32,292 nt of DNA, taken from NCBI GenBank assembly GCA_020629055.1, contig JAHDEB010000001.1, positions 72,761 to 105,052 of the forward strand. The letters run 5' to 3'. Of this stretch, positions 1 to 24,440 are shown piece after piece. The notes under the pieces were generated by a model. That model did not search any database, was not told the origin of the DNA, and saw only the letters and a list, made by a program, of their open reading frames with translations. The position numbers were made by a program, and so were the translations under genes. The DNA comes from Chloroflexota bacterium. Its GTDB lineage: Bacteria > Chloroflexota > Anaerolineae > Promineifilales > Promineifilaceae. Positions within the stretch are counted from its first letter, which is position 1. Each line of letters opens with the position of its first letter.

Positions 1-3000
1 TAGTAAAGGCTGACGGGTTTGTGAAAGCCGATGGATTGGTAAAGGCTGATGGGTTGGTGAAAGCCGATGGATTGGTAAAGGCTGACGGGTTGGTGAAAGC
101 CGATGGATTGGTAAAAGCTGACGGATTGGTGAAAGCTGATGGATTGGTAAAGGCTGACGGGTTTGTGAAAGCCGATGGATTGGTAAAGGCTGACGGGTTC
201 GCAAAGGCGGTTGTCACCTGTTCTGCACCGACCTCGGCTAAATTATCGGTCCCCACTAAATCATCATACGCTTTTTGGATGTCATTAAAAGCGACCAAAT
301 CATAATTTGCAGGGGAATCGTCTAACTTTAAGATCACCTGTTCACCCGGTTGGATGGCAAATTTAAACCAACGAGATTGCCCCGGTACGTCGATGTATTG
401 ACTTACACGGGTGCCGATCAGTGAATCGGTTTTTGGCTCTAGTTCTAATCGCTGGGCTTGGGTCCAATCTGTATTGTTGTCTTGAACAATGTAGCAGGTT
501 GAAAATTCAGACGTGTTTTCGTTCCAATCTGTTAGTGTGGCACTCACGTAGCTACCGAGGGGCAATTCACCTTCGGCCGTGAATGCGAAACCGGCATCTC
601 CAGCCTCGTTGATGATGGCCGTTTTTGTTGACCCAAGATACCAGCCACCTTGGCCGTTTCCTTGGTCACTACATTCGTTACTACCATAGAATTCAACGGT
701 GTAATCTGGGGCTGGCCCACCACCAGAGTGTAATCGGCCTGCGAAGAGTCCATTGATGACGTACATGCCATCTTCCCCTTCACCGGCATAGTAGATGATC
801 GGAGCGTTTTGACCGCCATTAATGCCGGTATCGGTGTCTCCATAATCATTTTCGTCAACGCCATCAGCGCCGATGTCGATGCTGTACCGGCCGTTTTCAT
901 AGATGAAATTCTGGCTAATCATATTGCCAGTCGATCCAGATGTACCGTCAATCGAGATGCCGTTTCCTAAGTTGTTAAATATCTTATTCCCCATGATGTG
1001 GGTGTTGGCGACATCTATCAGCTCGATACCATCATATTCATTATTGGCGATCAAGTTGCCCGCGTTGCTCTCTAATCCACCCAAAGTTGCACCATCGCCG
1101 GTGACTAAGATGCCAGATCCTTTATTGGGAGCCTCGGTGGTCCCATCTGCTCGCATCCCGATAAAATTGCTTTGAACCGTCACGTCATTGGCCGTTATTT
1201 TCAAGCCATTTTCTGGGCTGCCGCCAATCGATAGCCTGTAAATTTCAGTTTGGTCAGCCTGTACATTGAAAATGCTGCCCCCACTCAAGGCGGAGCCATT
1301 AATTTCAATATTTAAAGCTGGGGGTACCGATTGAGCGCGAGCCTGTTTTTCTGGATCAAGAAGACGCCCATCAATGATTACCGCTTCGGTGATTGGTACG
1401 AGAGAGGCGGTTAAATTAATCGTATGGGGGCCATCGCCGTCAATATCAAAAAAGATATAGTCCGGGCTACCCGCATTTGGACTATCATTTGCGGCCTGAA
1501 TCGCTTCGCTAAGTGAGCAGCTGCTGGTGTCACAAATGCCATTGTCCCCTGGATCGGCCGTGGTGTTGACATAGAAAATCGGGCCAAGCTGAGGAGCTCC
1601 TCCCGTCAAAATATCGATATCCGGAGGTCCCGTTTTGGTGACTGAATCAAAGAATGACTCTGTAGGTTCTAAAATTGCACCACCTGTATTGATGGCGCCA
1701 GCGGTTCCGTTTATGTTGGCATCTCCTATCTTGAATGGGGTCAAACCGTTCCCACCATGGACGATAACGATTTCCCCCCCCTCGATTGCCCCAGCAGAGT
1801 TGATAGAGTCTGCGCTACTGCCAAAGAAGATGAAGTTTGTGACTTTGACTGCACCATTGGGCGCTTGTAGCTTAATGTCGCCGCCTGAGGCTTGAAGATT
1901 TTGGCTGTTAATGCTCGAGGCGGTAATGTTTCCAGTAATACTGCTCAATTCAACCGAACTGCCAAGTGTCTGAATATGACCGGTTTCTATATTGGCATAC
2001 GAGGAAACGATAAAGGGGCTATCCTCTTGGATATCGAGGTCGCCATCGGTTAAATCGACACTGCCCCCTACCCCCGGTGCACGTAAATGAGTGGGGTCCT
2101 TAAAGGTCCAGCCGTTTGATTCCCCGATGATATCAAAGCGAAGTTCACCGCGTGAATCGGTGCGGCCGATGTAAACTTTTTTCCAGCCGTCTTTTATCGC
2201 TTCCAGATCAAAATCATTAAGTATAAAAGAGTCTGAAGCATTGACCGGCTGAAGCGTTAAGGTTCCTTCGCCAAGTATGCTGGTGCTGATTTCAATGCCT
2301 GTAGCGCGGAAGCCTTGATTGACGGCCGAGTTTTTACCCGTTCCGTTGATCACCCCGTCCCCTTCGCCTAAATCGATAACTGTGTCACGAAAATCAACAC
2401 CAATAGAGAAATCATCATCATCGTTCGTGGCGTCACCATAGGCAACAAAGTTACCACCACCCGTATAGAATTCGGCAAATTGCGTCCGAATTACTCCCCC
2501 GACGCCCCCTTGATCTGCCAATAAATGGATGTCTAATTGATTGCCTGTTTGATTCCCTGTGGTAATGCTGCCATCGAAAATAATGTCATCGTTGACATCT
2601 AAAATTAAACGATTGCCATCCTCGATATCATCAAGGTTGATATTGGAGTTAAACAACCAAGTTAGGTCGCCATCTTGCCCGCCCAACCCACGATTGGTGT
2701 GGATCGTTACATCATCGATTTTTAAAGCGGCGACAATTTCATCTACGCCGATTTCTGCATCAAGATCATAAACGTAAAAATCTTGATCGATTTGTACTGT
2801 CCCTGTTAAGCCAACCCCGCTTTGGACCGTGACGTCATAAGCAGATTGGAACTCAAAAGCACCCACATCACACGTGGCCGGTCTAGGGAACCCTCTTTGA
2901 TCCGTCTGGCCTGTACAAAACTCAGATCCCATGATTGAAACAGCGTTGCTTGACTGTGCCAGTTTGTGGGTCAGTGTTTCACCGCCATTTTCAGATAAGG

Positions 3001-4000
3001 TTGAATCGAATCCATCTACCTTTGTGTGGCCGCCGGTAAATTGACAGGTTGGGTCATCCACTAAGAGGGTGTCGATTGAGGGGCTCTGCCCTAAATCGCA
3101 GGCGACCCCATCAAAGTTGGTGATGATAAGCCCGAACAAGGAGGTTTCATGATTAACATCTGATCGAATAACTGCGGCCCCAGAGTTGTTGGCAAGCGTG
3201 CTTAGAATTAGGTTTATAAAGCTATCTAAGTCAGGCTCGCTGTTGGCTTCAATTGTTGCACCACTTGCATCGGCTGTGTTTCCAGAAACGGTGGTGTGGG
3301 TCAGTGTGACTGATCCAAAGTTGTTTTTAGTTGAGGTCGCAAGGGCCGACCCGGTGGGTGCCTGATTAAAGGCCAGCAATGAGCGGTTTAGATTGACTTC
3401 CCCATCTTCAGTAAAGATGGCGCCACCCTCGGCCGCGGCCGTATTTGAATTCACGGCGGAATCATTCACGGTTAGTGTTCCACCCCTAACCCATATGCCA
3501 CCCCCAGATTTTGATTCGTCATCGGCCGCATCCCCATACCGAACCGTTAATTGGTTGAGAGTTAAGCGAATAGACGAGTGGCTATCGATTACCCGGTCAA
3601 TCGCTTCGCTTTTTGACTGTCCCGCCTGAATAAAGGTGTTTTTGGCTCCGGAACCATTAATGATTAAGTCATCTAAGATATCTAAATCACCTGTCTGATT
3701 GCCGTTCTCTGCACGCCCTTCAAGCGTTAGGATATAAATTCCGGCCGGAAGCGTAATCGTATCTAAGCCAGAATTGCTAGGGTGATTCGCTTCATCAATA
3801 GCCGCCCTCAGGGTACACAGCCCGTTTTCATCTTTGCAAACCCCGTCCCCTGGTTCAACATCTACTGTGTCGAGCGAGCTATTGACGATAAAGCCAGCCG
3901 CGCTTACAGGGGCAAGGGTGCCAACGGCCATGAGGGCCACTAAGAGGCCAAAAGAGATCAACCATTTGAATGTCGGTCGTGAGATAGATAGCTTATTCAT
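1..4000 (-). CDS. Secreted CSLREA / choice-of-anchor-Q beta-helix surface protein (3' end beyond window)
   Basis: I read this frame by hand from the ATG at 4000 to base 2 and found no stop (1333 codons), so the gene continues off the left edge. AGGA lies 6 nt upstream of the ATG. Residues 1-34 form a signal peptide (cleavage likely after VSA). Residues 36-72 are a CSLREA-type module (GDGVC...CTLRAAIDEAN). Residues about 340-385 match a choice-of-anchor-Q segment (NGGETLTHKL, then DQRGFPRP..CDVGAFEF). Residues about 385-800 are beta-strand repeats resembling hemagglutinin or S-layer passengers. A second CSLREA-like motif (DNGICDTSSCSLSEAIQAAN) sits at 819-838, followed by Asn/Gly-rich right-handed beta-helix coils to about 1060. 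Residues about 1190-1262 look like a small beta-sandwich (WFKFAIQPGEQV). From about 1268 the chain is an NPSAFT hexapeptide repeat. Role: probably cell-surface adhesion or matrix; the exact function is unknown. Confidence 0.88.
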   Translation of the reverse strand, partial: MNKLSISRPTFKWLISFGLLVALMAVGTLAPVSAAGFIVNSSLDTVDVEPGDGVCKDENGLCTLRAAIDEANHPSNSGLDTITLPAGIYILTLEGRAENGNQTGDLDILDDLIINGSGAKNTFIQAGQSKSEAIDRVIDSHSSIRLTLNQLTVRYGDAADDESKSGGGIWVRGGTLTVNDSAVNSNTAAAEGGAIFTEDGEVNLNRSLLAFNQAPTGSALATSTKNNFGSVTLTHTTVSGNTADASGATIEANSEPDLDSFINLILSTLANNSGAAVIRSDVNHETSLFGLIITNFDGVACDLGQSPSIDTLLVDDPTCQFTGGHTKVDGFDSTLSENGGETLTHKLAQSSNAVSIMGSEFCTGQTDQRGFPRPATCDVGAFEFQSAYDVTVQSGVGLTGTVQIDQDFYVYDLDAEIGVDEIVAALKIDDVTIHTNRGLGGQDGDLTWLFNSNINLDDIEDGNRLILDVNDDIIFDGSITTGNQTGNQLDIHLLADQGGVGGVIRTQFAEFYTGGGNFVAYGDATNDDDDFSIGVDFRDTVIDLGEGDGVINGTGKNSAVNQGFRATGIEISTSILGEGTLTLQPVNASDSFILNDFDLEAIKDGWKKVYIGRTDSRGELRFDIIGESNGWTFKDPTHLRAPGVGGSVDLTDGDLDIQEDSPFIVSSYANIETGHIQTLGSSVELSSITGNITASSINSQNLQASGGDIKLQAPNGAVKVTNFIFFGSSADSINSAGAIEGGEIVIVHGGNGLTPFKIGDANINGTAGAINTGGAILEPTESFFDSVTKTGPPDIDILTGGAPQLGPIFYVNTTADPGDNGICDTSSCSLSEAIQAANDSPNAGSPDYIFFDIDGDGPHTINLTASLVPITEAVIIDGRLLDPEKQARAQSVPPALNIEINGSALSGGSIFNVQADQTEIYRLSIGGSPENGLKITANDVTVQSNFIGMRADGTTEAPNKGSGILVTGDGATLGGLESNAGNLIANNEYDGIELIDVANTHIMGNKIFNNLGNGISIDGTSGSTGNMISQNFIYENGRYSIDIGADGVDENDYGDTDTGINGGQNAPIIYYAGEGEDGMYVINGLFAGRLHSGGGPAPDYTVEFYGSNECSDQGNGQGGWYLGSTKTAIINEAGDAGFAFTAEGELPLGSYVSATLTDWNENTSEFSTCYIVQDNNTDWTQAQRLELEPKTDSLIGTRVSQYIDVPGQSRWFKFAIQPGEQVILKLDDSPANYDLVAFNDIQKAYDDLVGTDNLAEVGAEQVTTAFANPSAFTNPSAFTNPSAFTNPSAFTNPSAFTNPSAFTNPSAFTNPSAFTNPSAFTNPSAFTNPSAFT
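3..200. repeat. 18-bp coding minisatellite (NPSAFT hexapeptide repeat)
   Basis: Eleven consecutive 18-bp units run from 3 to 200, with a degenerate unit beginning at 201, and the array continues past the left edge. Two unit variants alternate (GTAAAGGCTGACGGGTTK and GTGAAAGCCGATGGATTG), giving a 36-bp higher-order period. In the minus-strand gene every unit reads as the hexapeptide NPSAFT. The two variants differ mostly at synonymous positions, so the peptide is conserved while the DNA has drifted. It is probably an extended Pro/Thr/Ser linker or stalk near the C-terminus. Confidence 0.93.
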
Positions 4001-4533
4001 TTTTTTCCTGGTTCCTTTAAAGTTTAAAGAGGTTGAGAGGCGTGGATGAGGATGCATTGGCCCTGCGTGTATACTTCAAAGCAGGACAATTAACCGAAAG
4101 GTAAATCCTAATGAGTCGAGCATGTTCAACAGGTACTTTGGTCTTGTCAGTATACCCCAGACAAGAAAAAAGATTTTCTCTAAGACCGCTAAATCTTATC
4201 AAATAACCCTTTTTCCGTTCAAACTGGTTGATCAGCCCTAGGGGGATGTGGCATGCTGATTTGACGACTGGGACCCCTTCAAACGATGTTTGCACGTAAT
4301 TTTTGGTTTTCCTTCACGCTAAGCCACTCATTTTACTTTGGGTGCCACAACTTTATTGTAGAATCAATTTGACCGTACCACAGAGCTATTGGTTAGAAGC
4401 TACCCCAGACCATAGTCATCGCAGCCCCGCAACCACCAAACGAGAAACGAAATTCTAGATCTATCTCCTGTTACCCCACCTACAAGGACATGGGTGGAAC
4501 GGATAGAAAGCATTTTCTAAGAGTGAAAAAACT
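4001..4533. other. Divergent intergenic region
   Basis: This 533-bp gap separates the adhesin (-) from the transporter-HEAT-CNB gene (+), so promoters for both should lie here. I see no clear consensus promoter. A 7-bp inverted repeat TCTTGTC/GACAAGA with an 11-nt loop lies at 4142-4166. A minus-strand open frame at 4017-4295 has no convincing start context or recognisable protein content. Confidence 0.5.
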
Positions 4534-12536: not shown

Positions 12537-13577
12537 CTAGTCAGACGATAGGGGCTGCCCCCAAACCGCAAACTCATTCCCACTTGGTTCTGTAAAATGG
12601 AAGCGTCGGCCACCTGGAAAATCGAAAATCTCGCGAAAAATCTTCCCACCGGCCGCTACAACTTTTGCTTGTGTCCCTTCTAAATCATCACTGTAAAAGA
12701 CGACCAGAGCACTTCCTTCATCGGCTCGAGCTTTTTGATCAGATTGAAAGAAGCCGCCGTCTAATCCCTCTCCAGAAAAATCGCAGTATGCGGGGCCAAA
12801 GTCTCGAAACGACCAGCCAAACGCGGCTGTAAAAAACGCTTTGGTCGCAGGCAGATTAACGGCCGGCAGTTCGACATAGTTAATCTTCTCATGCCGATTT
12901 GTATCTAATGCCCGATCAGGATAGTTTGTAAAAATCCCATCGACCCCCATATGCCGCATGCGTTCCATGTCTAATTTTTCATTGACCGTATAGACCAAAA
13001 CGCTTAACCCATGGCTGTGGGCAGTGTCCACCATCTTTTTTGTAACCATCCTTAAAGATGGATTGATGCCGACAGCTTCTAAATCGTTTAAAACAAAGTC
13101 ATAATCGATTTCTCCGGTCCAAAATAAAGCGGCTCGTTTATATTTCGGATTAATTTTTTTAGCTTCCATCAGCTCTGCATGGTCAAAGGAAGAGAGAAGA
13201 ATTTGCTCGGCCCGCCACGGCGCAGGCAGATGATTGTCTAAATAGTGAATAACAGGGGCAGCCGTCCCAGGCCCTTTTAGCTCGATGTTTAACCCAACTC
13301 GGCCGTCGATTAGGTTAACGACTTCGCTTAACAATGGGATTTGCTGGCCGTTGCCTGCATCTAGTGAACGCAAGTGGGCTAGGGTGTGGTCCATCACCGC
13401 TCCGGTGCCATTGGTTGTGCGGTCTAAATCATCATCATGAATTACAACCATGTCGTTTTCAACCGCATAAACATCGATTTCGATCCAATCCACCCCCATA
13501 TCTAGTGCTATTTGAATCGCCTCTAAAGTATTTTCCGGGGCATGCCCCATTGCTCCACGGTGTCCGATAATGATCAT
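12537..13577 (-). CDS. Glycerophosphodiester phosphodiesterase fused to a VOC/glyoxalase domain
   Basis: This is a 346-residue single open frame with two domains. Residues 1-225 are a GDPD TIM barrel, which hydrolyses glycerophosphodiesters to glycerol-3-phosphate and an alcohol. Catalytic and metal residues are visible: His6/Arg7 (IGHRG), Glu15/Asn16 (PENT), Glu33/Asp35 (IEIDV), His47/Asp48 (VIHDDDLDRTTNG) and Glu99/Lys101 (IELKG). Residues 231-341 form a glyoxalase/VOC domain (INYVELPAVNLPATKAFFTAAFGW, ending FHFTEPSGNEFAVW). They are joined by only about 6-8 residues. There is no signal peptide, so it acts in the cytoplasm. GAGG precedes the ATG on the minus strand. The gene is convergent with the MFS gene, with a gap of only 28 bp. 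The fusion is unusual; each domain is individually well supported. Confidence 0.9.
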   Translation of the reverse strand: MIIIGHRGAMGHAPENTLEAIQIALDMGVDWIEIDVYAVENDMVVIHDDDLDRTTNGTGAVMDHTLAHLRSLDAGNGQQIPLLSEVVNLIDGRVGLNIELKGPGTAAPVIHYLDNHLPAPWRAEQILLSSFDHAELMEAKKINPKYKRAALFWTGEIDYDFVLNDLEAVGINPSLRMVTKKMVDTAHSHGLSVLVYTVNEKLDMERMRHMGVDGIFTNYPDRALDTNRHEKINYVELPAVNLPATKAFFTAAFGWSFRDFGPAYCDFSGEGLDGGFFQSDQKARADEGSALVVFYSDDLEGTQAKVVAAGGKIFREIFDFPGGRRFHFTEPSGNEFAVWGQPLSSD

Positions 13578-15567: not shown

Positions 15568-16302
15568 ATTATCAGCGCGTGGCATGACTCTGTACTAGTA
15601 GAAAATCAAACTGCAGCTTACATTACCGGTTTAACCCACAGGGTTAGACTCCCAAAAGTTGAAAGTAAAAATGATAAATATCCTACGTTGCTACTGGTTC
15701 ACGGCCGTCATGGGAATGAAGATGTCCCGTGGATATTCGCACGAAATATTCCCGATAATTGGCTGATTGTTTCGCCGCGCGCTATTGAGTTTGAACCAGA
15801 GACTGATCAGCATGAAACAGGATACTCGTGGATCGAAATGCCCCCAGTCGGTTGGCCTGAAATCGGTGACTTTGATGGGGCGGTGCAAGCGATGTCTGAT
15901 TTTGCCGTGGCGTTACCCGATGTTTATGATGCTGACCCTGAACGGATCATCGCTTTAGGCTTTAGCCAAGGCGCGGCTACATTGTTGGCCACGGCCGTTC
16001 AGCATCCGGACTTGTTGCAAGGCATTGCCGCGCTGGTTGGGTTTGTGCCCGATTTAGATGATGAAACGATCCAGCGTAAACCTTTGCAAAATTTATCGGT
16101 TTTCATGGCGGCCGGAGAGCGGGATGAACGTATTCCCGTAGAGATTGCGACCCAATCGCGTGATACGGTACAAGCGGCCGGTGCTAACCTAGAGTGGGAC
16201 ATGTACAGCACCGGGCATAAAATGAATGGAAAAGGGATGCGCGATTTGGAAGCGTGGTTAGAAAATAAAATTAGTCAATTTGAGGATGATGGGGTTGAAT
16301 AG
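15568..16302 (+). CDS. Alpha/beta hydrolase, phospholipase/carboxylesterase family, with a non-standard start
   Basis: This is a serine hydrolase of the small carboxylesterase type. Counting from the first conventional in-frame start (TTG 15688), the nucleophile is Ser93 in LGFSQGAA, with Asp146 in AAGERDERIP and His177 in STGHKMN. The oxyanion region is LLLVHGRHGNED. The TTG cannot be the real start because the same frame is open back to 15544 and reads as protein (SAWHDSVLVENQ, then TGLTHRVRLPKVES), completing the first strands of the fold. No ATG, GTG or TTG occurs in that extension. AGGAG at 15559-15563 is placed to serve ATT 15568 or ATC 15571, giving about 244 residues. A sequence error or frameshift is the alternative. 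An HDAC-fold gene follows within 4 nt, so the two should be cotranscribed. Confidence 0.82.
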   Translation: MISAWHDSVLVENQTAAYITGLTHRVRLPKVESKNDKYPTLLLVHGRHGNEDVPWIFARNIPDNWLIVSPRAIEFEPETDQHETGYSWIEMPPVGWPEIGDFDGAVQAMSDFAVALPDVYDADPERIIALGFSQGAATLLATAVQHPDLLQGIAALVGFVPDLDDETIQRKPLQNLSVFMAAGERDERIPVEIATQSRDTVQAAGANLEWDMYSTGHKMNGKGMRDLEAWLENKISQFEDDGVE

Positions 16303-16306
16303 GCAT

Positions 16307-17341
16307 ATGAGCACACTTTTTTCTTTTGCACCAGCGTACGAACACAATTTAATCGGGCATCCAGAACATGCTGGACGCGGAAAAGCGGTGATGGATCTTT
16401 TAACTTCACAGCAAGTTTTAGCTGATTTAGCGCTTGTTGACCCGGTGATGGCCACCCCTGAACAGGTTCGTCGTGCACATGCGCAAAATGTCATCGAGCG
16501 TGCACAGCAGATTTCTTTGCGTGGTGGTGGCCAAATTGATGCTGATACGTATGCGACCGATGCATCTTATGATCTTGCGATGGTCGCGGCCGGGGCGACA
16601 ACCAATGCGGCGCTAGCTGTCGCAAATGGAGAGCACACCAACGGTTATGTGTTTGTACGCCCACCAGGGCACCATGCGGAATATAGTCGCTCGATGGGAT
16701 TTTGCCTTTTCAATAATATCGCCGTCGCTGCAAAAGAAGTTCAAGCGAAGACCAACTGCAAACGGCTCATGATCGTAGATATCGATGTACACCATGGAAA
16801 TGGGACTCAGGATATTTTTTACGGTGATGACTCAGTTCTTTTCATTTCAACCCATCAGTTCGGTTCATTTTTTTACCCAGGTACAGGGGCCGCTCATGAG
16901 CTTGGGCAGGATGCCGCTTCAGGGTTTAACTTTAATGTGCCAATTGTGGCAGGCGTAGGGGATGCGGGATACCTATCTATCATGGATCAGCTGATCGCCC
17001 CAGCAGCCCAGAAGTTTAAGCCAGACATGATCTTGATTTCGGCCGGTTTTGATGCGCATTGGCAAGACCCATTGGCTTCAATGGAGCTAAGCTTGACCGG
17101 ATATGCTCAGCTGGCCCAAAAACTCGTCTCGATCGCCCAGGAAACATGTGAAGGGCGAATTTTGTTTGTTCAAGAAGGGGGGTATATGCTGGATGTCTTA
17201 TCACACGCGGTCTTAAACTGTCTAAACGGATTGCTTGGCAACGATAAAATCGTAGACCCTTTTGGACTTTCTCCAGTGAAAGGGTCACCTGATCTTGTGA
17301 AGATGATCAAAGAATTACAAGTTCTTCACTTGCTTAAGTGA
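16307..17341 (+). CDS. Histone-deacetylase-superfamily (class II / acetylpolyamine amidohydrolase-like) zinc deacetylase
   Basis: This 344-residue enzyme should hydrolyse acetyl-amide bonds on a lysine side chain or polyamine in the cytoplasm. Catalytic elements are complete: tandem His122/His123 in RPPGHHAE, zinc ligands Asp160 and His162 in VDIDVHHGNGT, Asp249 in SAGFDAH, and the transition-state Tyr293 in QEGGY. I chose ATG 16307 because it lies 4 nt after the hydrolase stop and gives the usual N-terminus MSTLFSFAPAYEHNLIGHPE. Earlier in-frame TTG/ATG codons (16280-16291) overlap the upstream gene. In bacteria, family members act on acetylpolyamines, acetoin-related or acetylated protein substrates, and the exact substrate is not readable here. 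Confidence 0.92.
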   Translation: MSTLFSFAPAYEHNLIGHPEHAGRGKAVMDLLTSQQVLADLALVDPVMATPEQVRRAHAQNVIERAQQISLRGGGQIDADTYATDASYDLAMVAAGATTNAALAVANGEHTNGYVFVRPPGHHAEYSRSMGFCLFNNIAVAAKEVQAKTNCKRLMIVDIDVHHGNGTQDIFYGDDSVLFISTHQFGSFFYPGTGAAHELGQDAASGFNFNVPIVAGVGDAGYLSIMDQLIAPAAQKFKPDMILISAGFDAHWQDPLASMELSLTGYAQLAQKLVSIAQETCEGRILFVQEGGYMLDVLSHAVLNCLNGLLGNDKIVDPFGLSPVKGSPDLVKMIKELQVLHLLK

Positions 17342-17460
17342 CCCTAAATTAGCATAATTGTCCCATATTAAAAGACGAAAAATTTTAAGTTCATCAATTA
17401 AACTAAAGAGCAGAAGCTTTTTAGTTAACCATATTGGAGGAGCCTAAGTCAGAGGTGACG

Positions 17461-20400
17461 GTGAGTCAAATCAATCTCTATTCATATATTGAAGAAATCA
17501 AACAGCATTTTATTTCGGGCGATTATGCCCAAGTAGTTGCTCATAGCCGCCAAATCCTAAAGACTTACCCTCGTTATGTGGAAGCTTACCGATTAATGGG
17601 GTATGCACTTGCGGAGCAAAAAGCTTTTCAAGAAGCAGAGAATGTGCTTTATCGTGTTTTGAGTATCGATATTTCTGATTTCGAAGCGCATCGATATTTG
17701 GCCGAAGGCTTTGCAAGCACGGGACAATTAGAAAAAGCGATCTGGCACATAGAGCATGCATTTGAAATCGACCCGAATCATTTAGAGGTTACAAAGCTAC
17801 GTGAGCAATATTATAGAAGAGCGACGGTTCCAGCACCGGTTGTAAATGGCATGTCGTTGGCCTCTGTTGCTCGGCTCTATGTAAAAGGTGGCATTTACGA
17901 TCAAGCCATCGAAGAATTAAATCGCATGCTGGCCCATAATCCTGATCGCTTAGATTGGCGTACGCTTCTTGCGGTGGCTTATTGGCGCGAAGGTAAAAAT
18001 ACAGAGGCACTTAAGCTCGGAGAATCTATTCTTGAAAAGTTGCCCAACAATTATTATGCTCGGATGGTCATGGGTGATATTTGGAGGCAGAACGGCCGAC
18101 TAGACATTGCGGATAGTCACTTAGACATTCTGCAACAAATTCTGCTGATTGATTATGAACATCGGGCATCATTTCCACTCGCTGCCCCGATTTTAGAGCA
18201 AAGTGAAAAGATTAGTACCGGCTTTTCAGTTACCCGGTTGCCAGCCGATGCGAGCGAAGGTTGGAGCTCGCCAACTTGGGAGAGCGATGCTGATTCAATT
18301 GAAGATGCTGATGAGACCGAGTTCGACGATGTCTTGTCAAGCCTTGAGTTAGCAGATGATGATGCACCAACTAAAAAGATGGCCCCGGTCACACCAGAAA
18401 TTGAATATGACCGTGATGCACTTGGAACAGGCTCTCTCGATTCATTTACCAACCCTGAAGCGTTAGAAACAGAGGGGGGAGCAATTGATGAGAGCGAAGC
18501 AGAGTTGATTTTGCCTGCATCTGAAGAGCCATTTTCTTGGGATGGGGGAGATGATCCTGATCCTTTAACTGATTCTGAATTAAATCAGCTGCCTGATATT
18601 GATAATTTGATGACGGCCGAACTTGATTATGGTGTCGATGCGGATGACCCTACGGTAGAGTCGATTACTGAAGAGCTAAATGCACTTTCCGTAAATAGCA
18701 TCGAGGAACTGGCGGAGCTCGATCGTCAAAAGCGTGCTGATACTGATAGTGAGGATATTGAGCACATCTTATCTGAAGAAGATTTCAATCTAAGCGATGA
18801 AGATTTTGGATTGGACGATGAATTTTTTATCGATTTAACTTTAGAAGATGTGCTGAATGAAGATGCCGACCTAGAAGAATCAACAAATCAGGTAGATGAG
18901 CCAGCTGAATCTATAGAACCTGCCGATTTAGATCTTGGCCAAGAAGACGCCCTGCCCGTCATGAATGAGCAGGAACTTGAGAAGTTTGAAGACTCCAGTG
19001 AGATGGCTGATCCTCCGATCTCTGAACTTGTGATTGAAGTGGATGAAGATTTAGCACAAGCTTTAGATGAACCTCCGATAGAGCCAGAACCGCTCGCGGA
19101 GAGTGACCAAACTGTTGCAAAAAATGACCTAGACTTGAATGATGACCTACCCTCTTGGGATAGCGATAATGATGCACTTGATTGGCTAGACTCAGACAGT
19201 GACAATGAGCTAGATGACGTATTTAGTGATCTTGAACTTGAAGAGGATCTTGGCGTTGCGTCCGAAGCTACAACGACCGATCAGATTACTGAAACGATTA
19301 AGGCGGAAGCTGTGCCGACTGTTGCTGATTTTGAAGATGTTGGTTTAGATGAAGTAGGTCTTGAAGATCCAGGACTTGATTTAGAAACAGAAAGCGGCTT
19401 CACAGACTGGTTAGAAGCGGTTGATGCTCCTGAGGAAGAGCCGCAGGAGCCAGCGAAAATTGAAGATCAAGATCTTGAGGCGTTGATGCTTGAAGCGGAA
19501 GGTTCAGATGATCCGGCCGGGTCTGAGCTCGATGGCTCTACTGATGCTATGCATAGCGGATTGTTCGATTTTCTATCTGACGATGCGAATCAGTTAAACC
19601 CTCTGCCGAGCGACACTCAGGATATTGTTGATCAGCATAATTCCGATTTGGAAGATGAGATTGATGAACCCGATTGGGAAATCGACTTCTCAAATGAAGA
19701 TCAGGGTGAAGACGAGGAACAGCTTCAAGAATTATTTGAGCAAACAAATGATGTTGCTGTCGAGAATGAGGAGCCACTAGTTCAAGAGACCTCTGAATCA
19801 GCGGGGGATGACCCCTTTGACACATCTTGGCTAGACTTGGAACAGACAGAAGAAATTGACCTGTTATCTGAACCGGCCCCAGTTGAAGAAGCTGAGGATG
19901 TAGATCTAAGAACATACGCTGAAAACTTAGAAAGCGATTTTGATCTTTTAGCCCCTGATGACCCAGAGTCAGCTATAGATTTTTCTGAAGAATCTGACCC
20001 TGTGTACGCTTCAATTGAAAACCTTGGTAAAAGGATTCCCGAAGAATCTGATGAAGCCCAGGCTATTGAGTCGGAATCGGAAACTCCAGAATTAGATTCG
20101 GATGTAACTTCAGTTGAAGAACCAAATGTCTTAGAACTTGAAGACAATGATGTTCAAATCGGGACTGACCCTGAAGAGATTGCGGTCGAACCGGAAGAAG
20201 CGCAGGAAGTTGAACAAACATCCTCTCTGGAGTGGTTGATTCCTGGTGAAGAGGAATCGGAATTGGCTGGCTTAGATTCTTCAGATGAAGATTTAGAATG
20301 GCTTTCATTGCTCGAAGACGCAGGACCAGAAACAAAAGACCCAAATGCTGAGGCGCCCCCTAAGGTGCCATGGACAGGAGATTTGTCGGCCGCCGCAAGT

Positions 20401-23214
20401 GCAATCTTAATGCCAGAAGGCCAAAATAGTACGGAAGATTCAACGGTTGATGAAGCCCCTGACTGGCTGAATGAATTTCCCGAGTATAATACAGGCAGGC
20501 TACAGACCGATAAACTTGTAGAAGAAAATGTGATCGATAACGAGACACATGGTACAAGGAAAATTCAATTAGAAGACGATTCATTCGTTGAACCGGCTTC
20601 GGAAGATGAAAAACCGGATGAGGATGACTTTGAGGATGACCAGATATTTGCCCCGGTTGTCTTTCAAGAATCATCTGCAATGAAGCTGCCTGATTGGCTT
20701 TCAGACTCAACTGAAAGCGCAAGTTTAGGATACGAACCAGAACCAGGGTTAAAAGCGGATTTAGAAGCTGAAACTGATCAACCTGCTTCAGATGATCTTT
20801 TAGATATGTCTGACGATCAGATCGACCTACCCCTGGAAGATAGTAACAAATCAAACGATAGTGAATTAATCCTTGAGGATGAATTGGATATGGAATTCGA
20901 TAAAAACGGCAATCCGATACCACCAGAAAGCCAAGAATTGGAAGATACATTAAATTGGCTAGAGGAATTAGCAACGCTTGATTTAGAAGGTGATATTTCT
21001 AAGTCTGCGGTGAACATAAAAAATCTTGCAACCGATGGGGCTAAGGAACAACAGGCGAAAGACGAATCTTTAAATGAAGATCCACTGTCAGACATTTTTT
21101 CTGGTGGCTCTGCTTTACATGCATTTGCTGATTTAGAGAACGAGTCTTCAGAAGCTGTTGCTGAAAATGTTGACGAACCAGATGTCTCTAAGGAGACCTT
21201 GTCTTGGCTAGATAATTTATTTGCACCTGCACGATCTCCTAAAACGGAAGAGGATGCGCCAGAGCCTGTTGAGCCTGAAAATGAGCCAGAAGAGGTAGCT
21301 GCTGAAGCCGAAGTGGTATCAGATAGTTTAGAAGACGAACTCTTCATTGAAGATCTTGAAGGTCTGGATCCTTCAGATCACGATAAGGTCGATGAAGTTG
21401 TTCAAGATATTTTAGGTTTTGCTGAAGAAGAGCCTGAAGACAAAGTTGTAGAAGAACTAGATGAGCTAGATTTAGAATTGCCTGCCCTCGAAGTCGATGA
21501 GCTGATTGAAGAAGAAATTGAGCAAATAAGTTCGAGTTTGGCCGAACCAGTGGAGGAACCTAAGTCTGCTGCTTCAGAATTAGATCCTAGTCTAGATGAT
21601 CTATATATTAGTGAAGAAGAAATTTCAAATGCAGTAGAACATGGTGATGAGGTTCCCGGAATGGGAGACATCCCTGATGATCCTGAAGCACTTATGGCAT
21701 GGCTTAATTTAGAGCCTGAAAGCGAACCAGCGGTTGATACTTCGATTACAGAAGCAGAAGCGGCCATTGATTCTTTTTCAGATGAGCTCGAGTTAGAGTC
21801 TCCTGAATTATTGGAGGATCTGCCTTCTACCCCTGACACTGCTCTTTTAGAGGCTGCTTTAGACGTTGAAGAAATTGACGGCAGCACCGAGCTTGAATCT
21901 GTTGCTGATGTTGTCGATGAGATCGTTGCCGATGGTACGGCCGCAATCGAAGAAACTGTAGCGACTGAAGACAAAAAATCAAGCCTCTTTGATGATTCAG
22001 AAGCCCTGACTGTTTCTGCTGATGAGATTTCAAACGCTGTAGAATTTGGTGACGAAGTTCCTGGGATGGGCGACATCCCAGATGATCCAGATGCCCTAAT
22101 GGAATGGTTGGATCTATCTCCTCTTGAAAGTTCAGATGCTTCAGTTGAAGAAGCGATTGAGATGATTGAGTCTGCAGAATCTAGCGAAGCGGATTTGATT
22201 ATCGCAGACCTTGGATCTGATGATTCTGAACCGCTGTTAGAGGCGAAAGGGACGACCGACGAGCTAAATTTAGAAAAACTAGTTGTAGGGGAAGAGCTTG
22301 ACGATCTTTTTAATGATTTGGCTGGTCCCGAAGGGGCCGACATTGAAGATGAGGATCTTATTTTTGGAGACTTAGGCACCGGCCGACTTTCTGGCACTGA
22401 TTGGCTAGACAAAATGACTTTTGATAGTGACCCAGCATTGCTGGGAGATGTACCCACTGTCTTGCCGACGGCTCCAACTTTGCCAGATGAAGAAGATCTA
22501 GAAGCTCTGACTGAAGATCAAGAGACACCGGCCGAGACAGATACACCTGCACTAGACACCGACATCTCTGATGAAGAGATAGCTGAAAGCGCTGCTGCTG
22601 AGGTTGATCAAATTGAGTCGATTGAAGATTTGCCGGATGATCCCGACGAATTTATGCGGATATTAGAATCCAATGTTCCCCCAACTGAAGCATCAGTTGA
22701 TTTGCTTGATGAAGAACAAGCTGATGGGAGTATCGAGATTCCTGATTGGCTGCAAGTCGAAGCAGATGAGACGGCCGATCCGTTAAATTGGCTGGATGAG
22801 GCATCACCTAGTGGCGTGATGAATTGGCTAGAAGCTGAGGAATCTGCCAAAACTCAAGATGCAAGCGCAAGCGAAGACTCGCCGGTTGAAACTGAACCAG
22901 TTGCAGCTGAAGCAGCACCAGCGGTTGAAACGGTAGAGTCAGAGGTTGAGAAAGCTGTCGAAGACAGCGAACGGTCTATGTTTGATGATGTAGATCAAAC
23001 TGATAGCGCTCAAGACTCTGAAGCTAGCATTGATGATTTGCAAAAAATGCTCGATAGCCGAGATGATCTGCCTGGTTTGATCCGTAAAATTCGGGATCAA
23101 CTTAAAGTTCGTAATGACCCAGCGTTACAAAAGCTGTTGGGTGACGCGTACATGGAAAGCGGTCAATTGCAAGATGCATTGGATGCGTACCGTCAGGCAC
23201 AAAGGTTGCTATAA
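17461..23214 (+). CDS. Giant acidic TPR protein with a disordered Trp-Leu motif array
   Basis: This is a 1917-residue protein from GTG 17461. Alternatives are GTG 17455 or TTG 17434, but the TTG overlaps its own GGAGGAG box, and AGAGG lies 5 nt before 17461. Residues 1 to about 235 hold around six TPR-like helical hairpins (for example EAYRLMGYALAEQKAFQEAE and EAHRYLAEGFASTGQLEKAI). From about 245 to 1850 it is extremely Asp/Glu-rich, low in Lys/Arg and probably unstructured. It is punctuated by 15 WL dipeptides in acidic context between about 575 and 1790 (DALDWLDS, LPDWLSDS, TLNWLEEL, IPDWLQVE and others). A 29-residue motif is present twice (1387-1415 and 1522-1550), with a degenerate third copy at about 1706-1735. 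The C-terminus (about 1885-1917) returns to a TPR hairpin (KLLGDAYMESGQLQDALDAY). No signal peptide or TM segment is seen. It is probably a cytoplasmic scaffold; its function is unknown. Confidence 0.85.
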   Translation: MSQINLYSYIEEIKQHFISGDYAQVVAHSRQILKTYPRYVEAYRLMGYALAEQKAFQEAENVLYRVLSIDISDFEAHRYLAEGFASTGQLEKAIWHIEHAFEIDPNHLEVTKLREQYYRRATVPAPVVNGMSLASVARLYVKGGIYDQAIEELNRMLAHNPDRLDWRTLLAVAYWREGKNTEALKLGESILEKLPNNYYARMVMGDIWRQNGRLDIADSHLDILQQILLIDYEHRASFPLAAPILEQSEKISTGFSVTRLPADASEGWSSPTWESDADSIEDADETEFDDVLSSLELADDDAPTKKMAPVTPEIEYDRDALGTGSLDSFTNPEALETEGGAIDESEAELILPASEEPFSWDGGDDPDPLTDSELNQLPDIDNLMTAELDYGVDADDPTVESITEELNALSVNSIEELAELDRQKRADTDSEDIEHILSEEDFNLSDEDFGLDDEFFIDLTLEDVLNEDADLEESTNQVDEPAESIEPADLDLGQEDALPVMNEQELEKFEDSSEMADPPISELVIEVDEDLAQALDEPPIEPEPLAESDQTVAKNDLDLNDDLPSWDSDNDALDWLDSDSDNELDDVFSDLELEEDLGVASEATTTDQITETIKAEAVPTVADFEDVGLDEVGLEDPGLDLETESGFTDWLEAVDAPEEEPQEPAKIEDQDLEALMLEAEGSDDPAGSELDGSTDAMHSGLFDFLSDDANQLNPLPSDTQDIVDQHNSDLEDEIDEPDWEIDFSNEDQGEDEEQLQELFEQTNDVAVENEEPLVQETSESAGDDPFDTSWLDLEQTEEIDLLSEPAPVEEAEDVDLRTYAENLESDFDLLAPDDPESAIDFSEESDPVYASIENLGKRIPEESDEAQAIESESETPELDSDVTSVEEPNVLELEDNDVQIGTDPEEIAVEPEEAQEVEQTSSLEWLIPGEEESELAGLDSSDEDLEWLSLLEDAGPETKDPNAEAPPKVPWTGDLSAAASAILMPEGQNSTEDSTVDEAPDWLNEFPEYNTGRLQTDKLVEENVIDNETHGTRKIQLEDDSFVEPASEDEKPDEDDFEDDQIFAPVVFQESSAMKLPDWLSDSTESASLGYEPEPGLKADLEAETDQPASDDLLDMSDDQIDLPLEDSNKSNDSELILEDELDMEFDKNGNPIPPESQELEDTLNWLEELATLDLEGDISKSAVNIKNLATDGAKEQQAKDESLNEDPLSDIFSGGSALHAFADLENESSEAVAENVDEPDVSKETLSWLDNLFAPARSPKTEEDAPEPVEPENEPEEVAAEAEVVSDSLEDELFIEDLEGLDPSDHDKVDEVVQDILGFAEEEPEDKVVEELDELDLELPALEVDELIEEEIEQISSSLAEPVEEPKSAASELDPSLDDLYISEEEISNAVEHGDEVPGMGDIPDDPEALMAWLNLEPESEPAVDTSITEAEAAIDSFSDELELESPELLEDLPSTPDTALLEAALDVEEIDGSTELESVADVVDEIVADGTAAIEETVATEDKKSSLFDDSEALTVSADEISNAVEFGDEVPGMGDIPDDPDALMEWLDLSPLESSDASVEEAIEMIESAESSEADLIIADLGSDDSEPLLEAKGTTDELNLEKLVVGEELDDLFNDLAGPEGADIEDEDLIFGDLGTGRLSGTDWLDKMTFDSDPALLGDVPTVLPTAPTLPDEEDLEALTEDQETPAETDTPALDTDISDEEIAESAAAEVDQIESIEDLPDDPDEFMRILESNVPPTEASVDLLDEEQADGSIEIPDWLQVEADETADPLNWLDEASPSGVMNWLEAEESAKTQDASASEDSPVETEPVAAEAAPAVETVESEVEKAVEDSERSMFDDVDQTDSAQDSEASIDDLQKMLDSRDDLPGLIRKIRDQLKVRNDPALQKLLGDAYMESGQLQDALDAYRQAQRLL
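21619..22110 (+). repeat. Duplicated 29-residue acidic motif inside the giant TPR protein
   Basis: Copy A is at 21619-21705 and copy B at 22024-22110. They match at 26 of 29 residues and share the core DEVPGMGDIPDDP followed by LMxWL. Many codons differ synonymously (for example GGTGATGAGGTTCCC versus GGTGACGAAGTTCCT), so this is an old, protein-level constrained duplication rather than recent DNA repetition. A third, degenerate copy lies at 22576-22665 (core DLPDDPDEFM). Confidence 0.85.
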
Positions 23215-23469: not shown

Positions 23470-23919
23470 ATGGAACGCACACTTATTTTAGTAAAACCTG
23501 ATGGGGTTCAACGTGGATTGATGGGTGAGATTATCGGCCGTTTTGAACGCCGTGGTTTGAAATTGATCGGGATGAAGTTTTTGCAAATGACAAAAGCTTT
23601 AGCTGAAGAGCATTATGCGGTGCACAAAGGCCGTCCGTTTTACGACGCATTGGTAGAGTACATTACGTCTGGACCAATTGTAGCAATGGTTTGGGAGGGC
23701 AATGATGCGATTGCTGCTGCTCGTTCAACCATTGGTGCTACCAAACCATCTGAAGCTGCACCAGGCAGTATCCGTGGCGAATTTGGTATGGAAATCGGCC
23801 GTAACTTGGTTCATGGTTCAGATAGTCCTGAAAATGGCTTGCTTGAAGCAGCTATCTATTTCTCTGAAGAAGAATTGGTTAGCTGGTCTCGTGCAACCGA
23901 CTCTTGGATTATTGAGTAA
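23470..23919 (+). CDS. ndk: Nucleoside diphosphate kinase
   Basis: This 149-residue enzyme, standard length for the family, transfers the gamma phosphate from ATP to other NDPs through a phosphohistidine. The active-site His115 lies in [12 protein letters not shown], and the N-terminus [17 protein letters not shown] with Lys9 is diagnostic. The nearest Shine-Dalgarno (AGGAG, 23453-23457) is 12 nt from this ATG, which is long. An out-of-frame ATG at 23460 lies between them and opens only a short peptide, so translation initiation may be modulated. The gene has terminators on both sides and is probably monocistronic. Confidence 0.97.
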
Positions 23920-24164: not shown

Positions 24165-24440
24165 ATGAATAACCTAGTATTGTCAGTTGATAGCGAGTAT
24201 TTAATTAATCAAAGTCATTCGGAATTAAAAGCCAAGGCAGATGAAAAGCTTGGCATTTTAAACCAAAGCCAGCGCCCAAATGGATTGCGGTCTGGATTCT
24301 TTTCCCTTTTAGACATCGTCGTCAAAGAAGCTTCGGCCGGAAATAATATTCTTGGTGAATACCCCGGCTTCTTTCGAGCGATGATGGATGATAAAGAGCT
24401 TTACGATCATTTTGTAAAAGAAATGAGCGCCCAAGCGTAA
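24165..24440 (+). CDS. Small uncharacterised protein (91 residues)
   Basis: I do not recognise this family. The frame begins at an ATG preceded by GGATG and AAG at plausible distances. It encodes a mostly helical, soluble 91-residue protein without a signal peptide or TM segment. The C-terminal half (ILGEYPGFFRAMMDDKELYDHFVKEM) has the aromatic/acidic pattern of a folded helical domain, which argues against chance. One CGGCCG site lies within it. It sits alone between ndk and the amino-acid transporter, with clear gaps on both sides. Confidence 0.55.
   Translation: MNNLVLSVDSEYLINQSHSELKAKADEKLGILNQSQRPNGLRSGFFSLLDIVVKEASAGNNILGEYPGFFRAMMDDKELYDHFVKEMSAQA

Follow-up and report, generated by a model that had tools for sequence, protein, structure and literature searches.

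We analysed a window of 32,292 nucleotides from the Chloroflexota bacterium assembly GCA_020629055.1 (contig JAHDEB010000001.1, positions 72,761 to 105,052 of the forward strand), in which one gene encodes a protein with a tetratricopeptide repeat (TPR) domain at either end of a long acidic linker. Three copies of a short motif in this linker, referred to as A, B and C, are probably docking elements, i.e. short helix-forming linear motifs, in a multivalent TPR-linker-TPR scaffold. The peptide sequence of A and B is kept by purifying selection. A preceding sequence-only reading, which had interpreted the copies as one specific docking element under selection inside a disordered region, is right on selection and too narrow on scope. 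The parts of the gene are listed below; the length of the protein counts from the TTG start as listed.

17434..23214, + strand: TPR - acidic linker - TPR protein of 1926 amino acids, identified by the open reading frame (ORF) list, Pfam TPR matches at both ends and orthologs
17434..18168, + strand: N-terminal TPR domain, residues 1-245, identified by Pfam, the alignment and the model of the Anaerolinea thermolimosa protein
18169..22998, + strand: acidic linker, residues 246-1855, identified by composition
20872..20976, + strand: conserved island at W1175 (LEDTLNWLEELA), of the same motif class as A and B, identified by 29-residue windows with a three-way identity of up to 90%
21619-21705, + strand: motif copy A, residues 1396-1424, identified by sequence comparison and predicted helices
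22024-22110, + strand: motif copy B, residues 1531-1559, identified by sequence comparison and predicted helices
22345..22467, + strand: most conserved island of the linker, at W1657 (TGRLSGTDWLDKM), identified by 29-residue windows with a three-way identity of up to 93%
22576-22665, + strand: copy C, residues 1715-1744, identified by sequence, orthologs and a predicted helix
22747..22827, + strand: Trp trio W1772, W1786 and W1798 ahead of the C-terminal TPR, identified by alignment
22999..23211, + strand: C-terminal TPR, residues 1856-1926, identified by a Pfam TPR_2 match at 1900-1925 and predicted helices

The coordinates, frame and translations originally given for A and B are exact. The two copies share 26 of 29 residues, their DNA is identical at 69 of 87 positions (18 bases differ), and 13 of the 26 identical residues are encoded by different codons. 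According to the Nei-Gojobori method (NG86), synonymous differences affect 13.0 of 18.3 sites and nonsynonymous differences 5.0 of 68.7 sites, which corresponds to a synonymous divergence (dS) of 2.18, a nonsynonymous divergence (dN) of 0.077 and a ratio of 0.035 that represents a bound and not a precise value, because dS is saturated. The 95% range of the codon-bootstrapped ratio of nonsynonymous to synonymous differences (pN/pS) was 0.018-0.246. When 18 random base changes were placed 2000 times, at least 6 residues were altered (mean 12.1), compared with the 3 that are observed. Both the synonymous divergence between the copies and the selection on the peptide that had been claimed are thus borne out, with a dN/dS that is not near 1.

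Alternatively, A and B could be young DNA duplicates, which are alike for want of time. For the window gene we reject this as highly improbable, since dS is saturated, no tandem repeat spanning A and B was detected in a DNA-level search, the flanks are unlike and both copies are present in two other species. The 40-residue flanks, compared in register within the window protein itself, are 28% identical upstream and 38% identical downstream, and the similarity ends sharply at the motif edge. A search of the own genome with the motif returned, outside A and B, only matches with an E-value above 1, and the exact degenerate DNA pattern occurs in this genome at A and B only; indeed, the earlier suggestion to look for the core elsewhere in the genome yielded no strong match outside the TPR ORF. 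In phage records the motif had no match.

G002 and G003, representing two other species in the genus, have A and B in the same order, and in all three species A is followed by NLEPE and B by DLSP. Since these downstream signatures are constant for each copy, the duplication that generated A and B took place before the three species diverged. A comparison of all six copies (A and B of each species) shows no variation at 23 of 29 residues. At sites 11 (E or V) and 16 (G or E), A and B are identical within a genome, and at both of them the species of the window differs from G002 and G003. As judged from sequence, these in-step sites would fit a shared partner that has changed or an old gene conversion, the two being inseparable because the synonymous sites are saturated. 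Among the three orthologs, the three-way identity amounts to 83% for A and B, to 38% for the linker and to 21% for the stretch from A to B, which makes the copies islands of conservation, as expected under selection on the peptide. Only 38 of 1428 windows outscore A or B, and these are mostly located at the islands W1657 and W1175. The three-way comparison excludes the N-terminal TPR, where the G002 sequence is cut and the end of the G003 sequence lies in another frame, and dN/dS values across lineages (G001 or G004, two further species of the genus, versus the others) were excluded because these sequences were not gap-aligned.

The degenerate third copy that had been proposed is real. Copy C is weaker than A and B, but the two nearest orthologs have it at the same position (DLPDDPDEFMRIL / ELPDDPDEFIRIL), and in all three species it retains LPDDPDE and has RIL in place of WL. 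How such copies arise is indicated by G001 and G004, which contain six and three motif matches, respectively, and in-frame tandem units of 279 bp x2.7 (96%), 240 bp x2.0 (91%) and 273 bp x2.5 (87%); most pairs of the tandem copies have a dS of 0.06-0.35. In these two species, therefore, the motif is currently being copied as 240-279-bp in-frame tandem DNA units. A recent DNA duplication, which the sequence-only reading had named as a finding that would speak against it, is thus absent from the window gene and does take place in G001 and G004, where the copies are indeed young. From these units we derive that a unit with one motif duplicates and that everything except the motif then drifts, and copy C is consistent with an origin of this kind.

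The 1610-residue linker contains 32% Asp and Glu, 3% Lys and Arg and 21 Trp, and has a net charge of -475. One might regard such a linker as an acidic entropic spacer or a solubility tag, in which tandem duplication has left behind repeats that play no role in binding. We disfavour this explanation as unlikely, because a requirement for charge would by itself explain neither the retention of 23 of 29 residues nor the fixed positions of Trp-Leu at saturated dS, even though the acidity of the linker is kept in other Chloroflexota classes while the motif content varies, and even though the in-frame duplications in G001 and G004 are what it would lead one to expect. On the opposite strand, a long Ser-rich ORF (21402-22457, - strand) runs antisense to this region; most likely it only mirrors the Asp/Glu codon bias of the coding strand.

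A and B belong to a larger motif class. At all 15 Trp-Leu sites tested in the window linker (residues 400-1850) the Trp is kept in the three orthologs, and the flanks of these sites have a mean identity of 0.648 compared to 0.380 at random sites, a value that was reached in 2 of 5000 draws. A and B therefore rank among the best of a larger group of Trp-Leu elements, and the specific docking element of the sequence-only reading, although it would still be the most likely interpretation of the sequence, represents a motif class that occurs at 15 linker sites and family-wide. Of the 1754 linker Trp in 59 family proteins, 1138 have Leu as the next residue (background of Leu, 9%), and each of the 59 holds at least five Trp-Leu sites. 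L/I/M/F is found at position +4 of the linker Trp in 41% of cases versus a background of 16%; A and B themselves are without a hydrophobic residue at this position. These Trp statistics cover the window protein and 58 of 80 named loci (>700 aa), the 22 shorter or cut ones being excluded. The named loci are the best 80 of 346, picked by the peptide pattern [AS]xWH[LIM][EQ][RH]A[FYS]E, and the N-terminal TPR residues contained in this pattern (W104, H105) look conserved because they were used for selection.

A profile built iteratively from A and B gave P[DE]DP[DE]xAMAWLExLAARQGAxxxELP as the core in other genera, with as many as eight listed places in a protein; Anaerolinea thermolimosa has three clear AWLExLAARQGA copies. 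The ending LMxWL, which had been taken as characteristic of the element, holds within the genus, whereas other genera continue the helix as WLExLAARQGAxxxELP. The second main Trp-Leu class is [LI]PDWL. With respect to its distribution, the N-terminal TPR family was detected across the phylum, in 47 of 201 genomes (E-value of 1e-40 or better), and the relatives are mostly Anaerolineae, with Anaerolinea thermolimosa and Ornatilinea apprima as cultured members. The motif profile alone recovers only 22 of 199 genomes of the class, and its absence in others consequently means little. A C-terminal TPR was recognized in 23 of 49 proteins by a regular expression, which is too strict, and in 39 of 49 by eye, most of the others being split genes.

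Both terminal domains match generic Pfam TPR families (TPR_19, TPR_2 and others): TPR_19 reaches 61.3 bits over the whole protein (Pfam cut-off 25) with its best stretch at 155-210, and TPR_2 has its best stretch at the C-terminus (1900-1925). For the linker, the motifs and the architecture as a whole, no Pfam or NCBIfam model scored above its cut-off. All 16 aligned C-terminal regions have Trp in each of the three columns of the trio ahead of the C-terminal TPR.

Structure prediction with AlphaFold2 for residues 1381-1926 (16-row alignment, mean predicted local distance difference test score (pLDDT) 56.9) placed helices at 1394-1402 and 1417-1423 in A, at 1529-1537 and 1552-1559 in B and at 1737-1746 in copy C, all with a pLDDT of about 80, and four helices with a pLDDT of about 90 in the C-terminal TPR. 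Of the 546 residues, 279 are below a pLDDT of 50, and the last third of the linker is predicted to be mostly disordered, in agreement with the disordered surroundings of A and B that had been assumed beforehand. The view of the 29-mer as a single linear element does not hold in the prediction, in which A and B each form two short helices that flank a PGMxDIPDDP loop. In an AlphaFold model of the full-length Anaerolinea thermolimosa protein (alignment of 19 rows, mean pLDDT 60.3), both TPR domains reach a pLDDT of 97, with the N-terminal one mostly at 90-97, the linker is mostly at 30-50, and 13 of 14 predicted linker helices are located at a Trp or at most 4 residues away from one. Among the Foldseek matches listed there were only generic TPR structures, including PEX5.

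At six loci (L121, L124, L128, L142, L150 and L154) two adjacent genes replace the single gene. The first encodes an N-terminal TPR and a PDWL-type linker, the second AWLESLAxRQGA-type units and a C-terminal TPR; in L124 and L128 the second gene contains near-identical DPMAWLESLAKRQGA units in repetition. By eye, AMAWLExLAARQG resembles helix A of a TPR followed by the QG turn, and each motif could accordingly be the relic half-TPR of a decayed TPR array. This seems very unlikely to us, since a Pfam scan of two second-gene proteins over their full length, at E-values of up to 10, reported TPR in their C-terminal parts only, and the motif stretches of L124 and of the window gave no TPR.

A further candidate was the eukaryotic PEX14-like KPWE domain (PF17733), of which the motif could be a bacterial relative. 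Segments of two orthologs score 26.0 and 26.9 bits and the window segment 19.0 bits, i.e. below the cut-off of 27. These scores sum over two copies, single copies reaching 12-15 bits; the segments of G001 and G004 have no match, only profile positions 7-29 of 48 are matched, without the KPWE end, and other places in the same family of genomes score up to 23.2 bits. We therefore consider the relationship extremely improbable. None of 52 genomes was above the cut-off, membership in PF17733 was rejected, and the likeness of the genus-specific loop is ascribed to chance or convergence.

We thus return to docking as the preferred explanation. The Trp/Leu face of each small helix would bind a protein surface, and many weak Trp-Leu copies along a soft acidic chain would act together by avidity. 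A and B would bind the same partner, as suggested by the retention of identical residues in both copies and by the two sites at which both change together between species. Provided that docking is correct, we would name TPR domains belonging to this protein family, either in cis or in trans, as the leading partner candidate, albeit with less than even confidence; an external client protein, which we place slightly behind, would be a serious contender, and the remainder falls to something else.

Kinesin light chain is autoinhibited by a linker motif. By analogy, the motifs could dock into the TPR grooves of their own molecule or of a sister molecule and so bring about self-assembly or autoinhibition, which as a fully specified case of docking we regard as possible but tentative. 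TPR domains rank first as the candidate partner because they and the motifs are encoded in one gene or in two adjacent ones: Trp-rich acidic motifs and TPR domains lie on one chain, and the gene split, which parts the AWLE copies from the N-terminal TPR, predicts a complex of both products. The candidate is also preferred because the TPR of kinesin light chain is reported to bind W-acidic and Y-acidic peptides (PMC6224480, PMC6214655, PMC13078783). Common to both systems are a TPR, aromatic residues flanked by acidic ones and regulation by linear motifs; kinesin light chain differs as part of a eukaryotic motor with another motif register, and the pairing in the window protein is putative. In addition, residues 18, 37 and 39 of the N-terminal TPR are conserved at 85-99% in the Anaerolineae set and absent in five genes from other classes that have few Trp-Leu motifs, although this correlation is based on 80 versus 5 sequences.

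Several observations, in addition to the saturated dS mentioned above, weigh against docking or against the TPR as its partner. Five full genes from other Chloroflexota classes keep the acidic linker and the C-terminal TPR, but in these Trp is followed by L/I/V/M/F in only 0-2 cases among 5-12 Trp. The TPR domains hence persist where the motif is rare and do not need it there, and the architecture either predates the motif or extends beyond it. Contacts between motif and TPR are not readable from the AlphaFold output. In the Anaerolinea thermolimosa model only 12 of 19 linker Trp lie in or beside a helix, and the predicted helices may represent AlphaFold's usual reading of amphipathic stretches, given the thin alignments (16 and 19 rows).

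The protein would resemble other known systems in function without being a member of them, namely HubP/FimV and PEX5. HubP, according to PMC12918733, has a long acidic region that is largely unstructured and contains imperfect repeats, which differ in number between close species, and the C-terminal TPR region of HubP/FimV is regarded as a client hub (PMC12918733, PMC8789113). The window protein shares the acidic disordered region and the C-terminal TPR with HubP/FimV and the imperfect repeats with HubP, as described there. It differs by an N-terminal TPR and by the dominance of Trp-Leu motifs; LysM was absent from the Pfam matches of the whole protein, and a FimV-type C-terminal domain gave no NCBIfam match (whole protein at E-values of up to 0.001, C-terminus at up to 1). 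PEX5, as stated in PMC8086558, combines a TPR domain with an intrinsically disordered region that carries several aromatic motifs; the enrichment of the family at Trp +4 (41% versus 16%, A and B excepted) may be a further likeness. In contrast to PEX5, however, the family is bacterial, has a TPR at both ends and uses WL instead of WxxxF/Y, and no homology to it was seen beyond the generic TPR fold.

The motif itself is an ordinary conserved linear motif, and the interesting part is the carrier family, which appears to be undescribed: no description was found among the titles and abstract openings searched. To our knowledge, few bacterial proteins have folded hub domains connected by a disordered linker with a dense, repeated and conserved code of linear motifs. 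The family spans the class Anaerolineae and other Chloroflexota classes and includes cultured members, a single genus displays both motif birth by DNA duplication and motif retention by selection, and the short peptides and small TPR domains of the family are directly testable.

Two neighbouring genes flank the gene in the window:

16280..17341, + strand: HDAC-like deacetylase gene, directly upstream (Hist_deacetyl 312.6 bits)
23470..23919, + strand: nucleoside diphosphate kinase (NDK) gene, downstream (NDK 190 bits)

Among the loci with enough flanking sequence, the HDAC-like gene is located upstream in 33 of 76 and the NDK gene downstream in 29 of 51, and an RsfS gene is among the neighbours in 22 of 51. 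As a far-reaching and rather doubtful extension, the protein could be a general organiser of Chloroflexota, i.e. a widespread cytoplasmic hub with TPR at both ends of an acidic linker of up to about 2000 residues. In Anaerolineae, a code of up to ~40 Trp-Leu motifs from at least two classes (PDWL and AWLExLAxRQG), some spread by in-frame tandem duplication, would bind TPR in trans, so that the hub would self-assemble and recruit clients, possibly tied to deacetylation (HDAC-like) and nucleotide supply (NDK).

Elsewhere in the window, an ORF of 91 residues without a Pfam match (24165-24440, + strand) lies between the NDK gene and a transporter-like cluster. An ORF cut by the window edge (2-4057, - strand) has a weak right-handed beta-helix Pfam match and contains, at 3-199, a 36-bp (18-bp) tandem repeat that encodes TNPSAF units. 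Finally, the ORF at 12537-13577 (- strand) encodes a glycerophosphodiester phosphodiesterase domain fused to a glyoxalase-type domain.

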